Source: Cytophagaceae bacterium
GTDB taxonomy: Bacteria; Bacteroidota; Bacteroidia; Cytophagales; Spirosomataceae
Length of the DNA: 10,182 nucleotides
Direction of reading: 5' to 3'
Assembly: GCA_027485075.1 (NCBI GenBank)
Contig: JAIXRT010000285.1
Span: 1-10,182 of the forward strand
Shown in pieces: positions 1 to 10,182 of this stretch (position 1 is its first letter; the number at the start of each line of letters is the position of its first letter). Under the pieces are notes generated by a model. The model made no database searches. It saw only the letters and a program-made list of their open reading frames with translations, and was not told the DNA's origin. Both the position numbers and the translations under genes were made by a program.

Positions 1-1279
1 ATACTGTGCATCTTGTCACGGTGAAAAGGTTGAAGCCTTCGTTGACCGCCAATGGAAACATGGCAATACTAAAGCGCAAATTCTAGCCAGTATATCAAAT
101 GGTTACCCCGACTTAGGGATGCCTACCTGGAAAGAGACCATTTCAGCCAAAGAAATTGAGAAGTTAGCGGATCTAATTGTTGAGAATTTGGCTGGAGTTG
201 AGCAATATAAATTTGCCAACAAGCCTACCTCGAATGTATTTCAATCCGAGGGGATGCGCGTGGAATTGGATACGATTGCCACCGGATTTGATAGTCCTTG
301 GGGTTTTGCTCAACTACCAAATCTTGAGTATTTAATTTCGGATCGTTCAGGAAAACTATATTTGGTAGATCAAAAGAAAAATAAAACGCTTGTTGCCGGA
401 ACGCCTCAAGTAATGTCCAAAAGTCAAGGTGGATTATTGGATGTTGTTTTGCACCCACAATATGCTAAGAACGGTTGGGTCTATATGTCGTATTCCAAAT
501 TTAAAATAGAAGGTGGCAAAACCTTAACTTCAACAGCAATAGTCCGTGGAAAAATCAAAAATAATTCGTGGGTAGAATCGCAAGAGATTTTTGAAGCCTT
601 GCCGTATACGCAGACGTTATATCATTATGGATCACGTTTGGCATTCGACAAAAAAGGCATGTTATTTTTCAGTGTAGGTGAGCGTGGCATGGAAAAAGTA
701 TTTCCACAGGCATTAGATAATGACAATGGTAAAATTCACCGGATGTATGATGATGGTCGAATTCCGGCCGATAACCCATTCGCAAAATCTGCGCATCCAA
801 GTGTTTACTCGTACGGTCAGCGTAATCCGCAGGGATTGACGCTGAATCCAACAACCGGTGCGATTTGGGAAACAGAACACGGCCCACGTGGTGGTGATGA
901 AATTAATATCATTCAGGCAGGCAAAAATTACGGTTGGCCTACCATCACCTACGGCATCAACTACGACGGAAAACCAATCTCTGCCATATCGAAAAAAGAA
1001 GGCATGGAGCAACCCATTTCGTATTGGATTCCTTCGATTGCTCCTTCGGGATTAGCCTTTATTGACAGTGATAAATATCCAGCTTGGAAGGGTAATTTGA
1101 TGGTTGGTTCGTTACGTTTCAACTACCTGAACCGATGTGTGATAAAAAATAATAAAGTTGTTAAGCAGGAAAAGGTTCTTGTCAATCTAGGTAGAATGCG
1201 GAATGTCAAAATGGGTGTCGATGGATACTTGTATGTTGGCACAGAAAACCCAGGTATGGTTTTTCGGGTTCGACCATAA
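1..1279 (+). CDS. Cytochrome c / PQQ-dependent sugar dehydrogenase fusion (5' truncated by the window)
   Basis: The gene is open from the window's left edge (first full codon at base 2) to TAA at 1277-1279, with 425 residues visible. Residues 2-6 are a haem c site, CASCH. The ATG at 119-121 is not a start: its Met (visible residue 40, in DLGMPTW) fits the distal haem ligand. From about residue 85 there is a GSDH/Asd-type six-bladed propeller. Marker motifs are GGLLDVVLHP (143-152), HYGSRL, whose His (208) matches the catalytic base of soluble glucose dehydrogenase, QRNPQG (Arg274), then EHGPRGGDEIN and KNYGWP. Family knowledge predicts PQQ-dependent oxidation of an aldose or similar sugar outside the cytoplasm; the fused cytochrome would accept the electrons. 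The export signal lies outside the window. The fusion is clear, but the substrate cannot be told. A terminator follows directly, so this is the last gene of its transcript. Confidence 0.93.
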   Translation, partial: YCASCHGEKVEAFVDRQWKHGNTKAQILASISNGYPDLGMPTWKETISAKEIEKLADLIVENLAGVEQYKFANKPTSNVFQSEGMRVELDTIATGFDSPWGFAQLPNLEYLISDRSGKLYLVDQKKNKTLVAGTPQVMSKSQGGLLDVVLHPQYAKNGWVYMSYSKFKIEGGKTLTSTAIVRGKIKNNSWVESQEIFEALPYTQTLYHYGSRLAFDKKGMLFFSVGERGMEKVFPQALDNDNGKIHRMYDDGRIPADNPFAKSAHPSVYSYGQRNPQGLTLNPTTGAIWETEHGPRGGDEINIIQAGKNYGWPTITYGINYDGKPISAISKKEGMEQPISYWIPSIAPSGLAFIDSDKYPAWKGNLMVGSLRFNYLNRCVIKNNKVVKQEKVLVNLGRMRNVKMGVDGYLYVGTENPGMVFRVRP

Positions 1280-1301
1280 TTTATTTACTTCATATAATTT
1301 A

Positions 1302-1345
1302 AAACGCTGCTTCGAAACCTAGGATTGGGGCAGCGTTTCTTTTTT
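1302..1345 (+). terminator. Intrinsic terminator after the sugar dehydrogenase
   Basis: A perfect 9-bp stem pairs AAACGCTGC (1302-1310) with GCAGCGTTT (1330-1338) around a 19-nt loop. It is followed by CTTTTTT (1339-1345). It starts 22 nt after the dehydrogenase stop and separates that gene from the Rieske operon. Confidence 0.85.
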
Positions 1346-1464
1346 CAAAAATAGGCATGTAACTAGGTATAAGCGATTTTTCAATCATGACAAAAATCAG
1401 AAAATCAGACATACTACTTGCGTCAAAAATGCGTTAAATTGCCACCATATTAACCCAATCATAC

Positions 1465-1893
1465 ATGTCTACTAAAATACAACGCCACGAATTCTTGAAA
1501 TCTTTGGGATTTAAAGGAGCCTCCTTACTAGCTGTTTATTGCGGTGCCGCCAGCTTAAGCGCATGTCAAAACGAATCTGTAGGTCCTGCATCAGCCATTG
1601 ACTTTACTCTTGATTTATCAAATGCAGCTTATTCGGCATTAAATACCGTGGGTAAATATGTGATTTACAATCAAGTCGTTGTTGCGCGTGTATCATCAAC
1701 AAGCTTTGCTGCGGTGACACAAATCTGCTCGCATGAAGGCCGAGCACAAGTCATTTACAATGGCACTAACTTTTATTGCTCAGCACATGGTGCCACATTT
1801 AGTACGACGGGTACGGCATTATCAGTAACTAATAAAGCTATAGCTTCTTATAAAACGGCTCTTTCGGGCACAACTTTACGTGTATATGCATAG
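1465..1893 (+). CDS. Rieske [2Fe-2S] lipoprotein
   Basis: A 142-residue Rieske domain protein. The cluster ligands are visible as CSH (Cys88, His90) and CSAH (Cys105, His108), in the CxH-x14-CxxH pattern. The second box reads YCSAHGATF. The extra disulfide cysteines of bc1/b6f Rieske proteins are absent, as in many small high- or mid-potential ferredoxin-like Rieske proteins. The N-terminus has a hydrophobic signal and lipobox LSAC (lipidated Cys34). RHEFLKSLG resembles a Tat motif but has Arg-His instead of Arg-Arg, so the Tat route is uncertain, although prefolded Rieske proteins commonly use it. It is the first gene of a four-gene operon, and its 3' end overlaps the next gene by 8 bp. Its likely role is one-electron transfer in the periplasm or at a membrane face; the partner is unknown. 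A non-catalytic, ferredoxin-like role is inferred because no catalytic domain is attached. Confidence 0.9.
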   Translation: MSTKIQRHEFLKSLGFKGASLLAVYCGAASLSACQNESVGPASAIDFTLDLSNAAYSALNTVGKYVIYNQVVVARVSSTSFAAVTQICSHEGRAQVIYNGTNFYCSAHGATFSTTGTALSVTNKAIASYKTALSGTTLRVYA

Positions 1894-2806
1894 GTTATTA
1901 TTGATTTGCGGACTTCTGAGTTCGTTCCAACTAGCTGCGCAAGATGACTTGTTGGCGATGCTCGAGAAAGAAGATGCCAAAAAGCCAACGTACACCTTAG
2001 CCACATTTAAGGCTTCCCGATTGATTAATGGGCAATCGGTTGAAACGATCGCAAAGCAGCATGTGAATTTTTGGATTTCGCATCGGTTTGGGGCGATTAA
2101 TTCTGGATTTATAGATAATTTTTTTGGTCTGGATGAGGCCCGTATCCGCTTGGGTTTTGAATATGGGATTACAGACAATTTACTGGTGGGTGCTGGTCGG
2201 TCTACCATTGAAAAAACGTATGACACCTATGCCAAATACAAGGTGCTGAGGCAATCGAATAAGATGCCGGTGACGGTGACAGCATTTGGTAGTGTGGCAA
2301 GTAATACCATGAAAACGGGATATACGATGGAATCAGGAACGGTGATGCGATTTTACAATAATCTGCAACGCCAAAGCTACCTCGGTCAGGTATTGATGGC
2401 CCGAAAGTTTTCGGATAAGTTATCCTTGCAAGTGATGCCAACGATTTTACATACTAATTTAGCGGAGAGTGTATATATGGAAAATACGCAGGCGGCGATG
2501 GGATTTGGGGGACGCTATAAACTGAACAATCGCTTGAGTGTGTCAGCTGAATATTTTTATAATCTAGTTGAAAAGGATGAATATGAAGAATCCGCTGGAC
2601 AAAAATACCCGTATCATAATTCATTGGCCATCGGCTTTGACATTGAAACGGGTGGTCACGTATTTCAATTGCACGTGAGTAATTCGCGCGGTATGATTGA
2701 AAAACATTTTATAGGTCAAACGATAGGATCCTGGGAAAATGGGGACATTTTTTATGGCTTCAATATTGCCCGAACATTTAGTTTCGAACCAAAAATTAAG
2801 AAATAA
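1886..2806 (+). CDS. DUF5777-type outer-membrane beta-barrel protein
   Basis: The ATG at 1886 gives 306 residues and a clean signal peptide, MHRLLLICGLLSSFQLAA, cut before Gln19. A GTG six bases upstream would add two residues and is less likely. The 8-bp overlap with the Rieske gene suggests translational coupling. The mature N-terminus is a short acidic segment, followed by alternating, aromatic-rich strands typical of a bacterial beta-barrel. Examples are HVNFWISHRFG (59-69), ARIRLGFEYGITDNLLVGAG (85-104) and the C-terminal strand ending ARTFSF. The ISHRFG and EYGITDNL pieces match my memory of the Bacteroidota DUF5777 family, which has no settled biochemical function. Being sandwiched between Rieske and YceI genes suggests it houses or anchors redox partners in the outer membrane. 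That role is inference. Confidence 0.82.
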   Translation: MHRLLLICGLLSSFQLAAQDDLLAMLEKEDAKKPTYTLATFKASRLINGQSVETIAKQHVNFWISHRFGAINSGFIDNFFGLDEARIRLGFEYGITDNLLVGAGRSTIEKTYDTYAKYKVLRQSNKMPVTVTAFGSVASNTMKTGYTMESGTVMRFYNNLQRQSYLGQVLMARKFSDKLSLQVMPTILHTNLAESVYMENTQAAMGFGGRYKLNNRLSVSAEYFYNLVEKDEYEESAGQKYPYHNSLAIGFDIETGGHVFQLHVSNSRGMIEKHFIGQTIGSWENGDIFYGFNIARTFSFEPKIKK

Positions 2807-3342
2807 TGAAATACCTAATCACGCTTGCTTTCATTTGCCTAGTTTGGTCCGCAAATGCCCAATTATTCACTACGCAGACAGGTGAAATTTCGTTTTTCTC
2901 AAAAACTCCGATGGAGGATATTGACGCGGTTAACAAGCAAGTGGGTAGTATCATAAATTCAGCGACCAATGAAGTGGCTGTTCAGATGCGCGTAACCAAT
3001 TTTATATTTCCGAATAAGTTGATGCAAGAGCATTTCAACGAAAATTACTTGGAGACAGACAAATACCCGAACGCAACATTTAAAGGTAAAATCAAGGAAA
3101 CTGTTGATTTGAAGGTTGCGGGAACGTATGCTGTCACAGCATCAGGTACTGCTACAATTCATGGCGTATCACGGCCTGTGGAATTAAAAGGCACCTTGGT
3201 TTCAACGGGTAAAACATTAGCATTAACATGCATATTTGATATTCAATTGGATGAATACAAAATCGATATTCCTAAAATCGTATTCAAAAAAATAGCAGAG
3301 GTCATCAAAGTGAAGGGGAGTATCTCGTATACATTACGTTAA
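2806..3342 (+). CDS. YceI-like periplasmic lipid/quinone-binding protein
   Basis: 178 residues, starting at an ATG that shares one base with the upstream stop (TAATG), a termination-reinitiation arrangement. The signal peptide ends SANA before Gln19. The YceI lipocalin-like barrel is recognisable from the paired motifs HFNENYLETDKYPNATFKG (77-94) and GTATIHGVSRPVELKG (114-129). Length is normal for an exported YceI protein. Members of the family bind long isoprenoid chains such as polyprenyl phosphates or quinones in a hydrophobic channel, and several sit beside respiratory genes. Here the neighbours are a Rieske protein and a multihaem cytochrome, so carrying or presenting a quinone is a reasonable inference. 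The start is well fixed by the coupling to the barrel gene and by the signal peptide. Confidence 0.9.
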   Translation: MKYLITLAFICLVWSANAQLFTTQTGEISFFSKTPMEDIDAVNKQVGSIINSATNEVAVQMRVTNFIFPNKLMQEHFNENYLETDKYPNATFKGKIKETVDLKVAGTYAVTASGTATIHGVSRPVELKGTLVSTGKTLALTCIFDIQLDEYKIDIPKIVFKKIAEVIKVKGSISYTLR

Positions 3343-3343
3343 G

Positions 3344-4408
3344 ATGAAAAACCTGCTACTTTTAGTTGTTGCGCTATGCTTTTGTGCATGCCTACAAGAT
3401 AAAAATTTGCCTGTTCAGCCTTCGGGAGGCGGAGTCATTATTGACACACCCATCAAAGAAATTCCTGGCACCAATGCATCGTGTGATACGATGCTTATTT
3501 CCTTTGACAAATCGGTTTGGCCGATCTTACAGGCCAATTGCATCGCATGTCACTCGGCGAATATGGCGAGTGGGGGCGTAGATCTTTCTAGCTATGCCAA
3601 AATCACTCCGTATGTTAAGACCGGAAAACTGTATGGCTCGATAACGCATGCAAGTGGGTACAGTCCGATGCCTTCGTCAACAATGAAGTTAAACGTGTGT
3701 GATATTACGATCATTCGTAAATGGATTCGGGCTTCATCGCCATCTGGAAGTATTTTAGTTGACTTAAATCCGATCAATCCAGTGGACCCTGTGATAAATA
3801 TCCCATCAGTTCAGCCACCATCTTTGGTGACTTGCAGCCCAGATACCGTCTATTTCAAACAAAAAATTCTACCCTTAATCGTATCTAATTGTGCGATGAG
3901 TGGATGTCACGATGCTATTTCGAAAAAAGATGGCGTAATTCTGACGGATTATACGAACATCCTGCGTGAGGTACGGGTAAATAATCCTGTTAGCAGTGAT
4001 TTATATAGGTCTTTAATCGCCACAGGAGAAGATCGTATGCCTCCAGCAGGATCATTGCCAGCGGATCAAATTAATTCCGTGTTAACTTGGATCAAACAAG
4101 GGGCTAAAAATAATTCATGCGATGCATCTGCTACGAATTGTGTGACGACTAATATTAGCTTCAAATCTACGGTCCAACCGATTTTAAAGACTAATTGTGT
4201 CGGTTGTCATAGTGGTACAAAGCCGTCGGGAAACATTGATTTGACAACCTATACGCAAGTTCAAAAATATGCGGTCAACGGTAAACTTTATGGATCCATT
4301 GCACATCAAACTGGCTTCATACCGATGCCCTCTGCAACAAGTACCTTAAGTACATGCGAGGTCAGTCAAATAAAGTCCTGGATTAATTCCGGATCTATCA
4401 ACAATTAA
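3344..4408 (+). CDS. Three-haem c-type cytochrome lipoprotein with one CX4CH site
   Basis: 354 residues, starting 1 nt after the YceI stop. It has a short lipoprotein signal (MKNLLLLVVALCFCAC, probably lipidated at Cys16) and a flexible Pro/Gly-rich linker. Three cytochrome domains follow. Domain 1 has CIACH (66-70) with Met109 in SPMPSS. Domain 2 has CAMSGCH (183-189), a CX4CH motif, with Met232 in DRMPPAG. Domain 3 has CVGCH (285-289) with Met328 in IPMPSA. Domains 1 and 3 are clearly duplicates, with shared GKLYGSI-H-(S/T)G-PMPS motifs and a Cys before the last helix. This class of short domains is common in Bacteroidota envelope cytochromes. It is probably anchored in the outer membrane and serves as the terminal or surface electron carrier of the operon. 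No catalytic domain is attached, so its partner is unknown. Confidence 0.9.
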   Translation: MKNLLLLVVALCFCACLQDKNLPVQPSGGGVIIDTPIKEIPGTNASCDTMLISFDKSVWPILQANCIACHSANMASGGVDLSSYAKITPYVKTGKLYGSITHASGYSPMPSSTMKLNVCDITIIRKWIRASSPSGSILVDLNPINPVDPVINIPSVQPPSLVTCSPDTVYFKQKILPLIVSNCAMSGCHDAISKKDGVILTDYTNILREVRVNNPVSSDLYRSLIATGEDRMPPAGSLPADQINSVLTWIKQGAKNNSCDASATNCVTTNISFKSTVQPILKTNCVGCHSGTKPSGNIDLTTYTQVQKYAVNGKLYGSIAHQTGFIPMPSATSTLSTCEVSQIKSWINSGSINN

Positions 4409-4478
4409 GGTTGATTAGTTATTTCCGGCACAGATTGTCGGAAAGGCCGTTTGCCTGCTAACGTTAAATCCAACCTTA
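4406..4478 (+). other. Nested inverted repeats at the operon's 3' end
   Basis: The outer arms are TAAGGTTG (4406-4413, containing the cytochrome stop codon) and CAACCTTA (4471-4478), a perfect 8-bp pair. Inside are a 9-bp stem with one G-U pair, TTTCCGGCA (4422-4430) with TGTCGGAAA (4436-4444), and a small AGGC/GCCT stem (4444-4456). No T-tract follows, so it is not a classical terminator. It could be a 3'-end stabilising structure, a Rho-type end or a REP-like palindrome. The pairing is visible; the function is unknown. Confidence 0.45.
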
Positions 4479-4528
4479 GCACAATACTCAGCAATTAAAT
4501 CAAGAAATGATGGACGAAGACAATTATT

Positions 4529-4560
4529 CATGCTGCCGCGATTAAGACCCCAGCAGCATG
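4529..4560. terminator. Possible bidirectional hairpin between convergent genes
   Basis: A perfect 8-bp inverted repeat, CATGCTGC (4529-4536) and GCAGCATG (4553-4560), with a 16-nt loop. It lies 7 nt past the Dabb stop and between the convergent cytochrome and Dabb genes. Neither side has a strong T-run, so termination is inferred from placement only. Confidence 0.35.
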
Positions 4561-4567
4561 TATCCAT

Positions 4568-4951
4568 CTATACGTCTATGGAATCGTATACGATTACTTT
4601 TTGCCACAAGTGACTGTAGTTTTTGACAAAATCGACGTGGATGGGATGGTCTTGATAAATTTTTTGTCCAGCCTCATCATGAAAATACATGAGTTCGGAA
4701 ACGTCCCAAGAGGTATCAACTACCTCACGTTTTTCCGTCGAGGCCAGTACGCCAATATGCATTTTTTGTATGCTTGGAATACCTGAAAGAGACTTTAATC
4801 CTTTAATTAGTTGGGCCCGATCAGCGGCATTGCCCGGATTTTTCACCCAAAAAAATACGTGGTGTAATAATTTTGGTTCGGCAGCTGTGTTTTGAGAGGG
4901 TAAAGCGGCTCCAATGAGTGGTGTAGCAGCCAAAAATGTTCTTCGTTTCAT
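4568..4951 (-). CDS. Tat-exported Dabb (stress-responsive A/B barrel) domain protein
   Basis: 127 residues. The N-terminus MKRRTFLAATPLIGAAL has twin arginines (3-4) and a short hydrophobic stretch, a convincing Tat signal. The rest is a single ferredoxin-like Dabb domain. It begins LLHHVFFWVK (28-37) and has an NPGNAADRAQLIKGLKSL helix. It ends with the family's HPIHVDFVKNY (102-112) and W-KV-VYD pattern. Dabb domains dimerise into an alpha/beta barrel. Some members are stress-induced and others catalyse cyclisations, but most bacterial ones have no assigned substrate. Tat export implies folding in the cytoplasm before secretion, perhaps with a cofactor or as a dimer. It stands alone, divergent from the thioesterase with 49 nt between start codons. 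Confidence 0.85.
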   Translation of the reverse strand: MKRRTFLAATPLIGAALPSQNTAAEPKLLHHVFFWVKNPGNAADRAQLIKGLKSLSGIPSIQKMHIGVLASTEKREVVDTSWDVSELMYFHDEAGQKIYQDHPIHVDFVKNYSHLWQKVIVYDSIDV

Positions 4952-5000
4952 AGGTTATTTATTTGATTTAAAGTTAGGCAAAAATTGAATAGATTTGGGA

Positions 5001-5543
5001 ATGCAATATAAAGAAGTCCGCGATTCAGAAACAACCTATACGGAATTAATGATCCCATCGTATGCCAATTTTGGTGGCAAGGTCCATGGGGGAATCATTT
5101 TATCATTACTTGACAAAGTAGCTTACATCTGTGCTTCTAAGCATAGTCAACATTATTGTGTGACGGTCGCGGTGGAAGGTGTCGAATTCAAAAGTCCCGT
5201 CGAAGTGGGTGATCTTGTAGAGATTAAAGCATCGGTCAATTATGTAGGCCGGACAACCATGATTGTGGGGATGCGGGTGGAATGTTTCAAGCCTCAAAAT
5301 GGCATTGTACGCCATACGAATTCATGTTATTTCACCATGGCTGCCAAAGATGATTTGGAAAATTTAGTGGAAGTTCCAGGACTCATCTTATCCAATGATA
5401 CCGAATTAAGGCGATTTTGTGAAGGTAAGTTCATTCGAAAAATATCACAGGAAAAGCGTGAGATTCTTAAATCAAATTTGACAAATATTACACGGAAGGA
5501 AATGGAGGCGGATTGTAAGGAAGAAAGGTGTCAAATTAAGTAA
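5001..5543 (+). CDS. Hotdog-fold acyl-CoA thioesterase (YciA/ACOT type)
   Basis: 180 residues from ATG 5001; an in-frame TTG at 4995 would add two residues and is less likely. No signal peptide is seen, so it is cytoplasmic. The hotdog helix and its active-site region are clear: NFGGKVHGGIILSLLDKVAY (23-42), including the Asn23 and Asp38 positions used by this family. These are followed by VTVAVEGVEFKSPVEVGDLV (54-73) and YVGRTTMIVGMRVE (81-94). Family members hydrolyse acyl-CoA thioesters; chain length cannot be read from sequence. The last 50 or so residues form a charged, probably helical tail. TAGATTTG (4990-4997) matches a Bacteroidota -7 element, but the nearest upstream TTTG is 24 nt away, so a leaderless promoter there is only a possibility. 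It converges on the caspase gene with one base between stop codons. Confidence 0.88.
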   Translation: MQYKEVRDSETTYTELMIPSYANFGGKVHGGIILSLLDKVAYICASKHSQHYCVTVAVEGVEFKSPVEVGDLVEIKASVNYVGRTTMIVGMRVECFKPQNGIVRHTNSCYFTMAAKDDLENLVEVPGLILSNDTELRRFCEGKFIRKISQEKREILKSNLTNITRKEMEADCKEERCQIK

Positions 5544-5544
5544 C

Positions 5545-6522
5545 TTAGTTTACTCCGATAACGAGCTGTTTATTCCCAATAACTTGAACCTCTTGCTGTC
5601 GCTGAAATTGCCGATTTGCAATATAAGGAACACCTTCATTGGGATCATTCAAAAATTGTTCCATTTCAGATAAAGTTATTGAACCATCTGAATTTAAATC
5701 AGCAATACCCTGCAATCCTTTTAAAAAGAAATACGTAAACAAACTGTGTTGTTTTTCTGGGTACCAATTTGATACTTGGTCTGCTTTAGATGACATCAAA
5801 ATCATACTATTTGCATCATTGAATAAATCAATTTTGGGCTTTAGTGTTAAAGGACTAGCATTATTAATAATGGAATTCCCATCTCCGGTCTGTCCTGAAA
5901 AGCATGCATCTAATAAAACCATTTTTTTACTTGCTGGTAATGCGGCAATATCTGCAAAAAATTCATTTACCGCATAGGCATTCATATCAGTTAAATAGTT
6001 TGGATCTGCGTCATATGGCACAAGATAAGCACTGTTTTGATTTACCATACTTGGGGCTCCGTGTCCGACGTAGTAAACAAATAGTTCAGATTTACCGTCA
6101 GGCCTTAAAATACGTTTTAACCGATCCTTCAAAAAAGTTTTTATATACCCCGCAGTTGGCAAATCATCCATTGATTTTGGAAAAATATTGTTGGGATCAT
6201 AACCTAGACGTTTAATTAAATATTCCCGCATTAAACTTGCATCACGTTTTGCAAATTTTACTTTTGGAATACTTGCGTTCTGGTATTCTCCTACAGCTAT
6301 AATTAATGCAATCGCATTCGGATTCTTTATTTTAGTTTGAACGATATTATTTTCTATGTCTACCAAACGGGGATCTTCTCCTTTTTTGCGTTTGGGAAAA
6401 ACAGCGATTACTTGTTTTTTTGATGAAATTCGAAATGTATTACTTTGGGGCAAAGTTTGAGACTGAGCATTTCCCGAATGCAGGCAAGTAAGAAATAAAA
6501 TAACACAGAACGTTAAGCGCAT
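5545..6522 (-). CDS. Secreted caspase-like (peptidase C14) protein with an EF-hand loop
   Basis: 325 residues. The signal peptide ends HSGNA before Gln20. The caspase p20 fold runs from about residue 70 (NAIALIIAVGEYQ). The catalytic His is in VYYVGHGAP (His154) and the Cys in LLDACFSGQ (Cys207), the normal His-Cys dyad. MILMSSKADQVSNWY (240-254) resembles the region after the Cys that helps form the S1 pocket. Near the C-terminus, DLNSDGSITLSE (275-286) is a textbook 12-residue EF-hand loop with D-N-D at positions 1, 3, 5, Gly at 6, Ile at 8 and Glu at 12. Metacaspase-like enzymes cut after Arg/Lys and many need calcium, so calcium control is a fair inference, as is an envelope or extracellular site. 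It is the last gene of a five-gene operon, 8 nt after copy A. Targets are unknown. Confidence 0.92.
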   Translation of the reverse strand: MRLTFCVILFLTCLHSGNAQSQTLPQSNTFRISSKKQVIAVFPKRKKGEDPRLVDIENNIVQTKIKNPNAIALIIAVGEYQNASIPKVKFAKRDASLMREYLIKRLGYDPNNIFPKSMDDLPTAGYIKTFLKDRLKRILRPDGKSELFVYYVGHGAPSMVNQNSAYLVPYDADPNYLTDMNAYAVNEFFADIAALPASKKMVLLDACFSGQTGDGNSIINNASPLTLKPKIDLFNDANSMILMSSKADQVSNWYPEKQHSLFTYFFLKGLQGIADLNSDGSITLSEMEQFLNDPNEGVPYIANRQFQRQQEVQVIGNKQLVIGVN

Positions 6523-6530
6523 AATTTGAG

Positions 6531-7271
6531 CTATTTTTTTATACTAAATGTACCACTTGTACCATCTGCAAAGTTATTAATTGTTCCACGCTGAAAATTC
6601 TCTGGATTCAAAAATTTTGTATATCTTTTTCTTACATCGTCAGTCTCAAGTTGTAACTCTGCTTTTGCCTCGTCAATCAATTGTTTTTTTACTAAATCAT
6701 AATTGTAACCCAATAATACCTGAACTTCGGTATTCCCAGATGGTTTAATTGGACGAATCACCTTAAACAAAGGTTGAACACGTCCCAGTCTTTTTGATAC
6801 ACGATTAGCTGAAACTTCAATAGTTTTTGTCAAAGATACAGCATCCTGTGCAGATAATTGATTATTGGAAACATCAGATTCGATTACTGATCTCATGTTT
6901 GTCTCAACTAATCCAACTAATCTGTTTTTTGCCAACTCAGTAGCTTGCATTTCGGCCGCAGATTGAGTTTGTGCAATCGAAGAACCATTCGCAATAATCC
7001 ATTGAGGAAAACCATCCTGATCAACTTCAGTTTGACGACGATATGCTAAATCTAATTGAAAGTTTATAGGAGGGTTTCCGGGAAATACACTCCAGCCTTC
7101 TGCCAAATAGCGCTTCGCTTCTTTTTTTACATCGCGCGATACCTTCACGAAGGTAAATTTCTTTTTTGAAGCAACTACTTTGGGATTCACTACCTTCTTT
7201 TGAGAAATTTTACATTCAAAATTCACAAAGGAAAAAAGAAGCATAATTGAAAAATATTTTAACTTATACAT
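6531..7271 (-). CDS. LPP20-like exported protein, copy A
   Basis: 246 residues with a hydrophobic N-terminus (FSIMLLFSFVNFEC). If lipidated at Cys20, the lipobox is poor, with Glu at -1. After a basic segment comes a conserved core: FVKVSRDVKKEAKRY (41-55), GFPQWIIANGS (87-97), ELAKNRLVGLVETNMR (112-127) and a long helical tail. The GFPQWIIANG plus alternating A-x-x-x-A helix resembles the LPP20/FlgT-N group of envelope proteins, whose roles are structural or unknown. That assignment is from memory and only moderate. By hand count it shares about 80% identity with copy B (8210-8935) over residues 28-234. It lies between the DUF4384 and caspase genes with gaps of 16 and 8 nt, so all are probably co-transcribed. 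No catalytic residues are apparent. Confidence 0.8.
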   Translation of the reverse strand: MYKLKYFSIMLLFSFVNFECKISQKKVVNPKVVASKKKFTFVKVSRDVKKEAKRYLAEGWSVFPGNPPINFQLDLAYRRQTEVDQDGFPQWIIANGSSIAQTQSAAEMQATELAKNRLVGLVETNMRSVIESDVSNNQLSAQDAVSLTKTIEVSANRVSKRLGRVQPLFKVIRPIKPSGNTEVQVLLGYNYDLVKKQLIDEAKAELQLETDDVRKRYTKFLNPENFQRGTINNFADGTSGTFSIKK

Positions 7272-7287
7272 AGTAATATTTAGTTTT

Positions 7288-8223
7288 CTAATTTGAGAGA
7301 TTTAAATACCTGTAATCAACTTGAAGTTTACGTTTATTAATTCGCACTTTTTGTAGCCACTCTTGAAATTTGGCACTTGGCATACTTTTAGGCAACAAAA
7401 TTCCACGATTAAGCATTGATCTATCTAAGAATAAATGTGATTTATCTTCTACCAATGGAGTAGAAAATGAATCAGGAGAGAAAAGGATAAATAATTTATA
7501 CTGTTCAGAATCAACTCCACGGGGAAGTTTAAAATTTAATTCATCCACTGCACCTATTTCACTTAATTGATCATTCTTTTTGGAAAAAAATATATACTCT
7601 TTATTCCTTTGGATAGGTACAGAGCCCTGATATAGTCTAGTATCTTGATAAGGCAATATTCTAGAGGTTTCACCTAAATTTGGATCATCTAAATAGAGTG
7701 CTAAATAACCATTTTCTGGTGATTTAAATTGGACAAAAAAATCTTGATCATTTCTGAAAATTTCAGTGACGCACGTCGCCTTTTCACAATTCAATGTGTT
7801 CAACTTAAAAGTTATGGGGCCAGATTCTATTTCACGAACAATTCCAGCCACTTTAACTTTTAACCATTGTTCACCATTTAAGGTTTGAAAAGTAAAAATG
7901 GGTTCGCTTGTGTTGCGAACCCATTCTCCTTTTACAAAAGAATCTGAAAAAAAAGCAAATGATGATTTAGTTTCAATCGACTTATTTAATGATTTATTTT
8001 GTAAGTAGGTTGAATTACCATTAATAATTACACGACCAAATACACGTTCGATACCATCAATTTTAGCTTGTTGCAAGGCAATTTCTTGCGCTTTGAGCAT
8101 TGTTTGATTTTTTTCAATCCGCATTAAATTCTCTCCTACCGTAGCAATTTCCTTTTGCGAAAATCCGCTGTATGCTACGAATGAAAAGAGCAATCCTAGT
8201 AAAATACCATTAGTTTTTATCAC
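7288..8223 (-). CDS. DUF4384 domain secreted protein
   Basis: 311 residues from GTG 8223, which gives the signal peptide MIKTNGILLGLLFSFVAYSGFS before Gln. A TTG at 8241 would add six residues. No ATG is available nearby. It overlaps copy B by 14 bp, consistent with coupling. The N-terminal half (about 25-130) has ENLMRIEKNQTMLKAQEIAL and other alternating helical segments, resembling the FlgT-N/LPP20 fold. The second half carries DUF4384: FFVQFKSPENGYLALYLDD (162-180), then RILPYQ and an NKEYIFF strand, ending in a WL-K-R helix. DUF4384 is often found in or beside caspase-like and kinase-like proteins and is thought to bind partners in the envelope. Here it sits two genes upstream of a caspase-like protease, supporting a joint role. 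No catalytic site is visible. Confidence 0.82.
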   Translation of the reverse strand: MIKTNGILLGLLFSFVAYSGFSQKEIATVGENLMRIEKNQTMLKAQEIALQQAKIDGIERVFGRVIINGNSTYLQNKSLNKSIETKSSFAFFSDSFVKGEWVRNTSEPIFTFQTLNGEQWLKVKVAGIVREIESGPITFKLNTLNCEKATCVTEIFRNDQDFFVQFKSPENGYLALYLDDPNLGETSRILPYQDTRLYQGSVPIQRNKEYIFFSKKNDQLSEIGAVDELNFKLPRGVDSEQYKLFILFSPDSFSTPLVEDKSHLFLDRSMLNRGILLPKSMPSAKFQEWLQKVRINKRKLQVDYRYLNLSN

Positions 8224-8935
8224 CTTGAGTTTGGTCGTCAATGAAATTCTTAATAGTTCCTCTTTTTAAATTTTCAGGATTAAGAAACTTCTCATACCGT
8301 TTACGCACATCATCTGTTTCTAATTGCAACTCAGCTTTTGCCTCATCTAATAATTGCTTTTTCACTAAGTCATAGTTATATCCTAACAATACCTGAACCT
8401 CCAGATTACCTGATGCAATTACAGGTCTCTTTACTTGAAAAAGAGGCTGTACTCTGCCTAATTTCTTTGCAACTCTATTCGCAGAAACCTCAATTGTCTT
8501 GGTTAAAGAAACAGCATCTTGCGCAGATAATTGATTGTTAGCAACATCTGACTCAATGACAGCACGCATGTTTGTCTCAACCAAACCAACTAGTCTGTTT
8601 TTTGCTAATTCAATTGCTTGCATTGTTGCGGCCATTTCAGTTTGACCTACAGCTGATCCATTAGCAATTATCCATTGAGGAAAACCTTCATTATCCACTT
8701 CTGTTTGCCGACGAAACGCTAAGTCAAGTTGCTGTGCCATCGGTGGATTTGCCGTAAAGATATTCCAACCGTCTTTAGTATAACGTTTTGCTTCTTTTTT
8801 CACATCGCGCGAAACTTTTACAAAATTAAACTTCTTCTTCATGGCAATCACTTTAGGATTGACATTCTTATTTGATTTACATTGCCAAGCAAACGCTGCA
8901 ACGCAAAGAATTAATAATACTTTTAAACTTTTCAT
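8210..8935 (-). CDS. LPP20-like putative lipoprotein, copy B
   Basis: 241 residues from ATG 8935. An in-frame TTG at 8944 would add three residues and is rejected because the ATG gives a better signal, MKSLKVLLILCVAAFAWQC (lipidation possible at Cys19, though Gln at -1 is unusual). After the signal the sequence parallels copy A. It has FVKVSRDVKKEAKRY, GFPQWIIANGS, a perfectly shared 23-residue stretch around SAQDAVSLTKTIEVSANR, and EVQVLLGYNYDLVKKQL. Copies A and B differ mostly in the signal peptide, the GNPP/ANPP region and the C-terminal tail. The coding DNA also differs at many synonymous sites, so the duplication is old and kept by selection on protein. It precedes the DUF4384 gene with a 14-bp overlap. 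A paired role, such as forming a hetero-oligomer, is inference. Confidence 0.82.
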   Translation of the reverse strand: MKSLKVLLILCVAAFAWQCKSNKNVNPKVIAMKKKFNFVKVSRDVKKEAKRYTKDGWNIFTANPPMAQQLDLAFRRQTEVDNEGFPQWIIANGSAVGQTEMAATMQAIELAKNRLVGLVETNMRAVIESDVANNQLSAQDAVSLTKTIEVSANRVAKKLGRVQPLFQVKRPVIASGNLEVQVLLGYNYDLVKKQLLDEAKAELQLETDDVRKRYEKFLNPENLKRGTIKNFIDDQTQGDKN

Positions 8936-8966
8936 ACGAGTCAATTTGTTTTAGTTAAATATTAAG

Positions 8967-9779
8967 TTAGTTATGAATTGCAATAAGATTAAAAACATAG
9001 TTTTTGAAACTAGTTTCACGTAAAATTTTTGAAGACGGATTGCGATCTAAAACACGTTCACAACTAATACATCCATCCTTCTCGGGTCCAAAATACAAGC
9101 CTAGTTTAATATATCCTGTCTCATTCTCTACAAAATCGCATGAAAATGTTTGAGTAGCTAAATTCAACCGGATGTTTACGGGCTGTAAATTTCCAGCTTG
9201 CATAAAGTCTTCTGAACGTTGCTTTATTTGATTCCCTAAATCTGCCCAACTAGCACCAGAAACGGAAAAACCACGAATATATTTACCATAAGCTTTTGCT
9301 TTAGGCACGGCTTCAGCTGAGGCGATAGCAGCTGGAGCTGGCGTTTCCGTTATTGGGGTATTTTTTGGCTGAGCAGATTCTTCCACGTGAGTTAGTGAAG
9401 TTGCTGGCTTGGGCTCCTCAACTGGCTTGGGTTTAGCAATAGGTGTAGCATTAATTACCGCTAAAAATTCACCTTCAAGACTTAATCCATCCAACCCAAT
9501 TTCAAACTTTTTGCGCGTGCCTGGGTAGACTAATTCGAGTGATGGGGAAATATTGTCAACAGGAATTTCAACAAGTACATCATCTGCCAATTGTTTTAAC
9601 TTTACAGATAAAGAGAATCCTTGATAAGTCTGACCATCTAAATCATATGAAATTTCAATAACTCCCTTTTCTACATTGAAGCCTGCCACTATATTTGAGA
9701 CTGTTTGAGCATTGGAAAGTTCGCTTGAGCCAACAATCAAAAAGAGTGCATATAAAACACTATTAATTAAATTTTTCAT
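8967..9779 (-). CDS. Secreted protein with Ig-like N-domain and Pro/Ala-rich linker; first gene of the caspase operon
   Basis: 270 residues. The signal peptide ends SSELSNA before Gln25. An N-terminal domain (about 27-112) has VSNI-GVIEISYDLDG (27-49) and a PGTRKKFEIGLDGLSLEGEF segment (86-105). It resembles the beta-sandwich module found in many Bacteroidota exported proteins (recalled pattern: VSNV...ITYDL...PG..K.I.W). A low-complexity Pro/Ala/Glu linker follows (about 113-160: KPKPVEEPKPATS, TPAPAAIASAEAVPKAK). The C-domain (165-270) has SWADLGNQIKQRSEDFM, TGYIKLGLYFGPEKDGC and a possible Cys237/Cys240 pair (CISC), with Cys214 nearby. Nothing identifies an enzyme. It is the promoter-proximal gene of the five-gene operon, 31 nt upstream of copy B. 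I do not recognise a named family for the C-domain. Confidence 0.78.
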   Translation of the reverse strand: MKNLINSVLYALFLIVGSSELSNAQTVSNIVAGFNVEKGVIEISYDLDGQTYQGFSLSVKLKQLADDVLVEIPVDNISPSLELVYPGTRKKFEIGLDGLSLEGEFLAVINATPIAKPKPVEEPKPATSLTHVEESAQPKNTPITETPAPAAIASAEAVPKAKAYGKYIRGFSVSGASWADLGNQIKQRSEDFMQAGNLQPVNIRLNLATQTFSCDFVENETGYIKLGLYFGPEKDGCISCERVLDRNPSSKILRETSFKNYVFNLIAIHN

Positions 9780-9803
9780 CTAATATATATATAGTTATAA
9801 CCC

Positions 9804-9836
9804 CAATTTTACAAAAAAATAATTAACTACGACAAA
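9804..9836 (-). promoter_or_regulatory. Putative Bacteroidota-type promoter of the caspase operon
   Basis: On the minus strand, TTTG (9836-9833) is separated by 21 nt from TAAAATTG (9811-9804). The Bacteroidota consensus is TTTG-N19 to 21-TAnnTTTG, so there is one mismatch in the -7 box. The start codon follows 24 nt downstream of the -7 box, with an AT-rich leader of TATATA repeats. The spacing is right, but the region is so AT-rich that a chance match is possible. Confidence 0.45.
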
Positions 9837-9965
9837 AAATAAGGCCAAACTTATTAAGTGGTACCTGATTCATTAACCTTTAAATAACTAATATTTTGAA
9901 ATTTAAATAAAACCTAGTTTTTTTAGGATTCTAATTTTTAACAACAAAACTCAAACTAAACTAAA

Positions 9966-10182
9966 ATGAAATCACTGAAACTTGGCATTTCTATAGTTGG
10001 CGTAATAATGCTACTTGCATCGTGTTCAATAACTTTACCAATATCGGCTTCATCGAATCCATTAGGAACAAAAAGAGGCCAATCGACAGGAACTTGCTAT
10101 TTAGGAGCTTTATGTTTTGATGTAGACGCATCTATCCAGACAGCTGCAAAAAATGCAGGGATTTCTAAGATTTCAACCGTAG
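9966..10182 (+). CDS. TRL-like lipoprotein (3' truncated by the window)
   Basis: The first 72 codons are visible, starting at ATG 9966, and no stop is reached. The signal is MKSLKLGISIVGVIMLLASC with lipobox LASC (lipidated Cys20). The mature part has SSNPLGTKRGQSTGTCYLGALC and DASIQTAAKNAGISKIST. The NP-G-K-G start and the AAKN-GI-KI-TV pattern are typical of the TRL-like family of small bacterial lipoproteins. Family function is not established. An extra Cys pair (TCYLGALC) lies where many members have a glycine-rich piece. The leader from 9929 to the start contains no G and is rich in A and C, as expected for Bacteroidota translation starts without a Shine-Dalgarno site. It is divergent from the caspase operon, so the 186-nt gap serves both. 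No clear TAnnTTTG box was found on the plus strand. Confidence 0.85.
   Translation, partial: MKSLKLGISIVGVIMLLASCSITLPISASSNPLGTKRGQSTGTCYLGALCFDVDASIQTAAKNAGISKISTV

Follow-up and report, generated by a model that had tools for sequence, protein, structure and literature searches.

Most discussion of bacterial caspases treats them as enzymes of death or defence in the cytoplasm; could one also work in the cell envelope, with partners encoded beside it? This question is raised by contig JAIXRT010000285.1 of a Cytophagaceae bacterium (Spirosomataceae, assembly GCA_027485075.1), whose analysed stretch of 10,182 nt we call the window. From 9779 to 5545 its minus strand is filled by five co-directional open reading frames (ORFs), A to E, of which the last encodes a caspase. 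Their spacing, as read from the sequence, is 31 nt (A-B), -14 nt (B-C), 16 nt (C-D) and 8 nt (D-E). Our answer is a tentative one: at close to an even chance, in our judgement, the operon encodes an envelope-located caspase complex. We were led to this reading by the export-type N-termini, the C14 dyad of E, the predicted fold of B, the DUF4384 homologues of C, the recurrence of the partnership in other genomes and a fusion of B to DUF4384.

We regard A to E as real genes, since A, B and C have homologues (20, 89 and 22 database proteins, respectively, listed at an E-value ≤1e-3, the window's own cluster counted in each), D is 73% identical to B in amino acid sequence, and E matches the Pfam family Peptidase_C14. 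The original prediction, made from the letters of the window, had proposed five exported-looking genes with these coordinates and spacings, and this was borne out. On the Kyte-Doolittle scale the N-terminal hydrophobic segments of A to E reach 2.5 to 3.3, whereas none of 993 internal windows of the same proteins exceeds 2.3. By this simple hydropathy score, rather than by a trained signal-peptide predictor, all five N-termini look like export signals.

Gene E (5545..6522; like A to D on the minus strand) encodes 325 residues, of which 71-274 match Peptidase_C14 (50.8 bits, cut-off 21.4). The match stops at profile position 195 of 233, the sequence terminates shortly past the caspase fold, and the Pfam scan found no second domain above cut-off. 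The intact His-Cys dyad that had been claimed for it is there: H154 (codon 6061..6063) and C207 (codon 5902..5904), both kept in 33 of 34 relatives. E is thus, judged from its sequence, an apparently catalytic C14 caspase that looks exported. D94 (kept in 34/34 relatives) and D205 (33/34) fit, by motif only and without alignment to TbMCA2, the two aspartates which in that enzyme bind or accept basic substrate residues, as described in passages of PMC6426788 and PMC4357240.

Genes B (8210..8935, 241 residues from the ATG at 8935) and D (6531..7271, 246 residues) encode putative lipoproteins, which are also 72% identical at the nucleotide level over 620 bases. A FastTree phylogeny with 36 database homologues places B and D in separate clades, each of which includes homologues of its own (local supports 0.92 and 0.94). 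The duplication that made D an old paralogue of B thus predates this genome. Read by eye, both carry a lipobox-like cysteine in an atypical box, AWQ-C19 in B (codon 8881-8879) and NFE-C20 in D (codon 7214-7212). The same kind of reading found such a cysteine in all 16 of the closest database homologues (P0001-P0016, P0001 being the window's own) and in none of P0017 and P0019-P0030. Neither protein matches Pfam, and the LPP20 models in Pfam or NCBIfam match neither at an E-value ≤1; for 26 B-family members, LPP20 is also absent from the 25 families listed out of 29. The structural model of B consists of a strand (residues 88-97), a long helix (100-132), a helical insert (138-158) and two further strands (163-171 and 178-187). 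Searched against PDB structures, it has FTT1539c, Lpp20 (two chains) and HP1454 in its first four Foldseek rows, and the first seven rows from VIA-align are taken up by Lpp20, HP1454, Tip-alpha and 3guq, an entry from H. pylori. We therefore predict an Lpp20-like (SHS2-like) fold for B, with its core at residues 88-187 (8375..8674), and by homology for D.

Gene C (7288..8223, 311 residues) starts with GTG at 8223, overlaps B by 14 nt and encodes a protein with an export-type N-terminus. Its N-terminal domain belongs to no known family and its C-terminal domain is DUF4384-like (about residues 155-250, 7474..7761), the boundaries being placed by alignment with a homologue in L179, a stretch from outside the order. 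C itself has no match to the DUF4384 profile; 13 of 24 homologues match at an E-value ≤0.5 (best 3e-4), and the L179 homologue passes, with 41.5 bits against a cut-off of 27 over residues 144-226. That homologue in turn is found by the C profiles A2 (1e-8) and A4 (2e-10 to 2e-11). C thus appears related to DUF4384, through its homologues only. The partners had originally been called a DUF4384 protein and LPP20-like proteins; sequence models do not recognise the window's own proteins as such, but the description survives through homologues for C and through the predicted fold for B.

Does the partnership occur elsewhere? In a sample of 148 genomes from the order, our own included, we found a match to E in 71, a B-type gene in 20, a C-type gene in 20 and A in our own genome only. 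The caspase is thus usually found without the other four genes, and the full five-gene set was present in no other genome searched, either in the order or in a genus sample. We rejected the five-gene unit as a conserved operon, A being confined in both samples to its own genome apart from four weak partial matches in the genus. A smaller core does recur. A caspase with a B-type and/or C-type gene is found in three other genomes of the order, in one named metagenome-assembled genome (MAG) and in two genomes outside the order, so that the idea of a caspase with dedicated partners holds for the partnership, which reaches distant genomes, but not for the set of five, which is not widely conserved.

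Within the order, 21 genomes have B or C, and a caspase lies beside one or both in four of them (our own, G049, G036 and, if its intervening gene is taken as B, G026) and within about 8 kb in four more (G034, G063, G090 and G131). Caspase and B are on the same strand 209 nt apart in G049 and are separated by 12 nt in G036; in G026 one gene stands between caspase and C, B-like by its place and its lipoprotein-like N-terminus and missed by the B profile. Two stretches come from outside this sample. On the contig of the named MAG (L001) B lies 20 nt behind a WD40-CARDB-caspase gene of 1668 codons, and C another 7 nt behind B. L002 has B, C and, 4.4 kb further, a CARDB-caspase. Outside the order we examined eight stretches, of which two contain a caspase (L177 and L179) and six none. 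In L179 (G417) a caspase with a CARDB match overlaps the C gene by 4 nt. L177 (G518) holds a string of genes with overlaps or short gaps throughout: an unknown exported gene, a sigma-like gene, zf-HC2, a lipoprotein in which B is fused to DUF4384, a 447-residue protein and a caspase, which is thus one gene from the fusion. The B proteins of L001 and L177 carry the lipobox-like cysteine.

The DUF4384 half of the L177 fusion scores 36.0 bits against a cut-off of 27, and is 35% identical to a C-like protein in L176, a stretch that has B and C as two genes. This C-like protein gives a weak match to the C profile (2e-6, covering its N-terminal part) and one at 2e-8 to the L179 protein. The fusion is the strongest single sign that the products of B and C cooperate, and it lies within a caspase gene string.

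Co-occurrence across whole genomes points the same way. Our own genome excluded, an E-like caspase (1e-20 or better) is present in 19 of 19 genomes of the order with B and in 3 of 128 others (Fisher 4e-21), and counting by genus gives 12/12 against 1/66 (3e-13); at 1e-30 the figures are 18/19 and 3/128. These p-values overstate the case, because the 1e-20 limit was picked after the list had been seen and because the statistics ignore kinship, with 17 of the 19 genomes in families f14 and f18. One genus supplies an internal contrast: G036 has both B and the caspase, and G020 neither.

If the operon does encode an envelope-located complex, the lipoproteins B and D would be anchored at the outer membrane, on its periplasmic face, and C would bind these two by the same part that G518 has in fusion with B. 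B, D and C, together with A in this clade, would form an oligomeric scaffold holding E in the periplasm. Once scaffold or cargo changed, for example under envelope stress, E would cleave after Arg or Lys, and the outcome would be limited proteolysis of envelope proteins. Envelope stress as the trigger is a weak suggestion, prompted by the presence of a sigma-like gene and a zf-HC2 gene in L177 and of a CsgG/LpoB-like gene immediately upstream in L086. A bolder version, which we consider unlikely as it stands, is that of an outer-membrane caspase machine of Bacteroidota, in which a lipid-anchored ring or lattice of Lpp20-fold and DUF4384 proteins would recruit an exported caspase, with CHAT or transglutaminase-like proteins and sigma/anti-sigma control added in some lineages. 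It would be an extracytoplasmic executor of envelope stress or cell fate, a counterpart of caspase activation by scaffolds.

Several neighbourhoods of B and C hold further genes that we record as observations. The sigma-factor-like gene of L177, which is under cut-offs, and the zf-HC2 gene (L177:8295-9870) lie within the caspase string as if they were its own sigma/anti-sigma switch. A TPR-CHAT protein with a signal-peptide-like N-terminus, and thus a second protein of clan-CD type that looks exported, adjoins B and the caspase in G036 (L084:6579-9413). Near B in G131 (L099:8857-18001), encoded in one string, are a weak DUF4384 protein, an OmpA-PD40 protein, a 773-residue unknown, a TPR-caspase and a WD40 protein, most of them with signal-like N-termini by eye. 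L177:5979-7322 and L176:2036-3583 encode members of a common exported family beside B/C (25% identity, E-value 2e-54) without Pfam match, and its C-terminal stretch around DCED resembles, by eye, a transglutaminase-like core.

The linkage data themselves suggest the best-surviving alternative, that B and C belong together as a general envelope pair, which the caspase, as one of many exported proteins of these bacteria, joined by chance or loosely; we hold this to be unlikely. Several counts weigh on its side and against an envelope caspase complex. B and C occur together in 19 genomes of the order and are direct neighbours in 15 of these, which is far commoner than adjacency of the caspase (4/21, with G026 counted). 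Eight of the 15 adjacent pairs are on the same strand and seven are divergent; all seven divergent pairs belong to genus g37, and none of them has an adjoining caspase. Furthermore, 13 of these 21 genomes have no caspase in the stretch examined. What speaks for a tie to the caspase is that the link recurs in separate lineages, also beyond the order (L177 and L179), and that every B genome of the order has an E-like caspase.

Less likely again is that E is a secreted or surface protease that feeds on algal or detrital protein, with A to D aiding its display. Export signals in all five proteins would fit such a surface protease, and a passage of PMC4933709 speculates that metacaspases of Baltic Bacteroidetes degrade phytoplankton polymers. 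However, Pfam finds no adhesive or binding domain in E, no obvious type IX sorting domain was seen by eye (with no model run) in its sequence, which stops soon past the caspase fold, and reading the ORFs and Pfam matches of the operon revealed no transporter or utilisation gene.

We are slightly more doubtful of a death or anti-phage effector of the envelope, whose partners would hold the caspase inactive until a signal such as phage arrives. The operon is patchy and, as set out below, probably acquired, PADLOC gives E a weak caspase match (29.4 bits), and in G036 the exported-looking TPR-CHAT protein stands beside B and the caspase. On the other hand, Pfam and PADLOC reveal in A to E neither a partner known from defence systems nor an NTPase or nuclease domain; the only other PADLOC row at an E-value ≤0.01 is DpdE for B, at 14.1 bits over 44 of 1037 positions. 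Among the neighbours of B and C genes no family except the caspase and a pair formed by YceI and an outer-membrane-type gene recurs in at least three genera. The apparent export of all five products also counts against a defence effector.

A calcium-gated envelope protease, with an EF-hand loop as sensor, we judge improbable. Residues 275-286 of E (5665..5700) form an EF-hand-like loop, DLNSDGSITLSE, whose canonical ligand positions are occupied by acidic or polar residues, and many metacaspases are calcium-activated according to a passage of PMC4357240. Nevertheless, the loop is single and unpaired and falls under the Pfam cut-offs for EF-hand_5 (16.6 against 25.9 bits), EF-hand_1 and EF-hand_6. 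It is also shared across the family, with a strict form in 10 and a loose form in 26 of 34 relatives, and its position, where the conserved part of the caspase ends, means that it may be structural. The textbook calcium loop of the original prediction does not, then, set E apart. An export-type N-terminus is found in 16 of 21 relatives with a complete ORF (same hydropathy score, threshold 2.3), so that loop and export are both common traits of the group to which E belongs.

How the operon came to this genome can be read in part from its flanks. Window positions 1-5550 are collinear, at 89% identity, with contig 125 of the genus relative G149, and the collinearity ends at 5550; GC content is 0.39-0.43 in windows of 1-5500 and 0.32-0.38 in windows of 5001-10000. 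The AT-richer segment 5551..10182 (no strand assigned), whose far end lies beyond the contig, is missing here in G149, the closest genome compared, where a thioesterase gene and an oxidoreductase gene are separated by 43 bp. Fifteen genus relatives gave a match; in the eight stretches with the thioesterase that we compared, the oxidoreductase adjoins the thioesterase in five (L132-L136), and in L137-L139 none was found beside it. In our genome the operon comes after the thioesterase; the oxidoreductase sits on another contig, C9, which departs from the shared gene order at 1707, in the same intergenic gap (the one that measures 43 bp in G149), on the oxidoreductase side. That the contig is a chimera of two organisms, with the operon foreign to this genome, would suit the change of collinearity and GC at about 5550 and the draft state of the assembly (286 contigs, 3.27% contamination), but it is the least probable of the alternatives, insertion being favoured because two contigs break at the same site, each at a different gene of the pair.

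The operon probably arrived by horizontal transfer, within a larger insert. Among 38 genomes of the genus B-type genes were found in our own only, E-like genes in our own and, in a weaker case, in G183 (31% identity), and A in our own besides the weak partial matches. Past its break, C9 (L153:1778-4264) has a gene for a phosphodiester glycosidase (81 bits to NAGPA) and two more that match nothing in Pfam, which are perhaps the far end of the insert; as parts of the system we discarded them, having found no relatives in B/C loci. Plasmid records gave no match to protein D and phage records one, MT839828.1 (L176). This is an unverified 4-kb record labelled as bacteriophage, from a human faecal sample; positions 720-3583 hold a C-like gene, a B-type ORF and the gene for an exported protein of 515 residues. 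We did not take it as phage carriage: besides the C-like gene it has a last ORF resembling, by eye, phosphate acetyltransferase, and is more likely a fragment of a bacterial chromosome for that reason.

Two other observations concern the surroundings. A YceI gene and the same outer-membrane-type gene lie near C or B in three genera (window 1880-3342, L081:892-2282 and L084:13765-15304); the pair is also present in G149, of the same genus as the window, without the operon. Its presence near C or B may be due to chance or to a preference for the site. A repeat some 40 bases long (probes L132:1104-1144 and 4415-4460), often in both orientations, is found on many contigs of our genome and explains most of 80 own-genome matches to one 9-kb query.

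Gene A (8967..9779, 270 residues), the first of the operon, encodes an exported protein with a signal-like N-terminus and no domain match in Pfam or NCBIfam, and its close homologues are confined to a narrow clade. In this clade the A-B-C order may be conserved: identical longest-contig values for A, B/D and C homologues (63444, 77238 and 15574) or for A and C homologues (10020, 11473, 3341, 467530 and 30660), together with the names RJA76_1064 and RJA76_1066 given by one source to A and C homologues, suggest this without proving it. A second protein in our genome (contig C105, L105:3545-4105), with an N-terminal membrane helix by eye, is a relative of A that matches its C-terminal half (32% identity, E-value 6e-14). 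An A-like gene in L177 has a similar signal peptide and Ig-like start by eye; its BLASTP E-value is 0.94 and we claim no relation.

How does the operon compare with known systems? The original prediction called an exported caspase with dedicated lipoprotein partners little described; exported C14 proteases as such are not unknown. Passages of a 2012 survey (PMC3501461) note N-terminal helices of metacaspases that may be signal peptides and, among 217 metacaspase operons, report OmpA in 14 and cell-surface functions in 16; a secreted caspase-YARHG protein is mentioned in a passage of PMC3355149. E resembles orthocaspases and metacaspases in its C14 domain, its dyad and, by motif, its two acidic pocket residues; what separates these two groups is a p10 domain, which metacaspases have and orthocaspases lack. 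In the passages concerned, DUF4384 is described as an accessory domain of orthocaspases (PMC7475262) and is placed at the C-terminus of an alphaproteobacterial clade of pseudo-orthocaspases (PMC6426788). In contrast, E is a minimal, apparently exported enzyme, with the DUF4384-like part in an exported-looking protein of its own. With the surface-linked operons of the survey, as its passages describe them, our operon shares exported or envelope partners beside the caspase, and G131 likewise has OmpA-PD40 and TPR-caspase genes near B. The main text of PMC3501461 has no word starting with DUF; LPP20 is not named in its passages that were at hand, a word search for LPP20 not having been made there.

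The predicted strand, long helix and two strands of B recall Lpp20, FlgP, FlgT and Tip-alpha, and a passage of PMC12222027 assigns a common fold to FlgP, Lpp20, FlgT and dodecin. B differs from the Lpp20/FlgP group in having no match to a sequence model. FlgP, a ring former, has a ring-forming beta-hairpin between the long helix and the second strand (PMC12222027), whereas the model of B has the helix 138-158 in its place. The gingipains (C25) and clostripains (C11) belong, like E, to clan CD. Gingipains are exported by Bacteroidota and carry prodomains and further domains. E differs from both families in matching C14 by profile; like the specificity proposed for E, gingipains cleave after Arg or Lys, as stated in a passage of PMC4357240.

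In the open-access literature searched we found, among the matches listed, no caspase with LPP20-like partners, and further no paper in which LPP20 and DUF4384 appear together, and none that joins at least three of caspase, LPP20 family, murein transglycosylase, CsgG and DUF4384. Judged by title, the LPP20 papers among the matches listed deal with Helicobacter, Legionella and unrelated themes. What is already in print, then, is the joining of DUF4384 to orthocaspases and the existence of metacaspase operons with surface functions; apparently new is an exported C14 caspase with a separate set of LPP20-fold and DUF4384 partners. If a recurrent envelope caspase with lipoprotein and DUF4384 partners of its own does exist, DUF4384 would gain a role that can be tested, as scaffold of a caspase, and what exported C14 proteases do could be studied by simple experiments at the bench.

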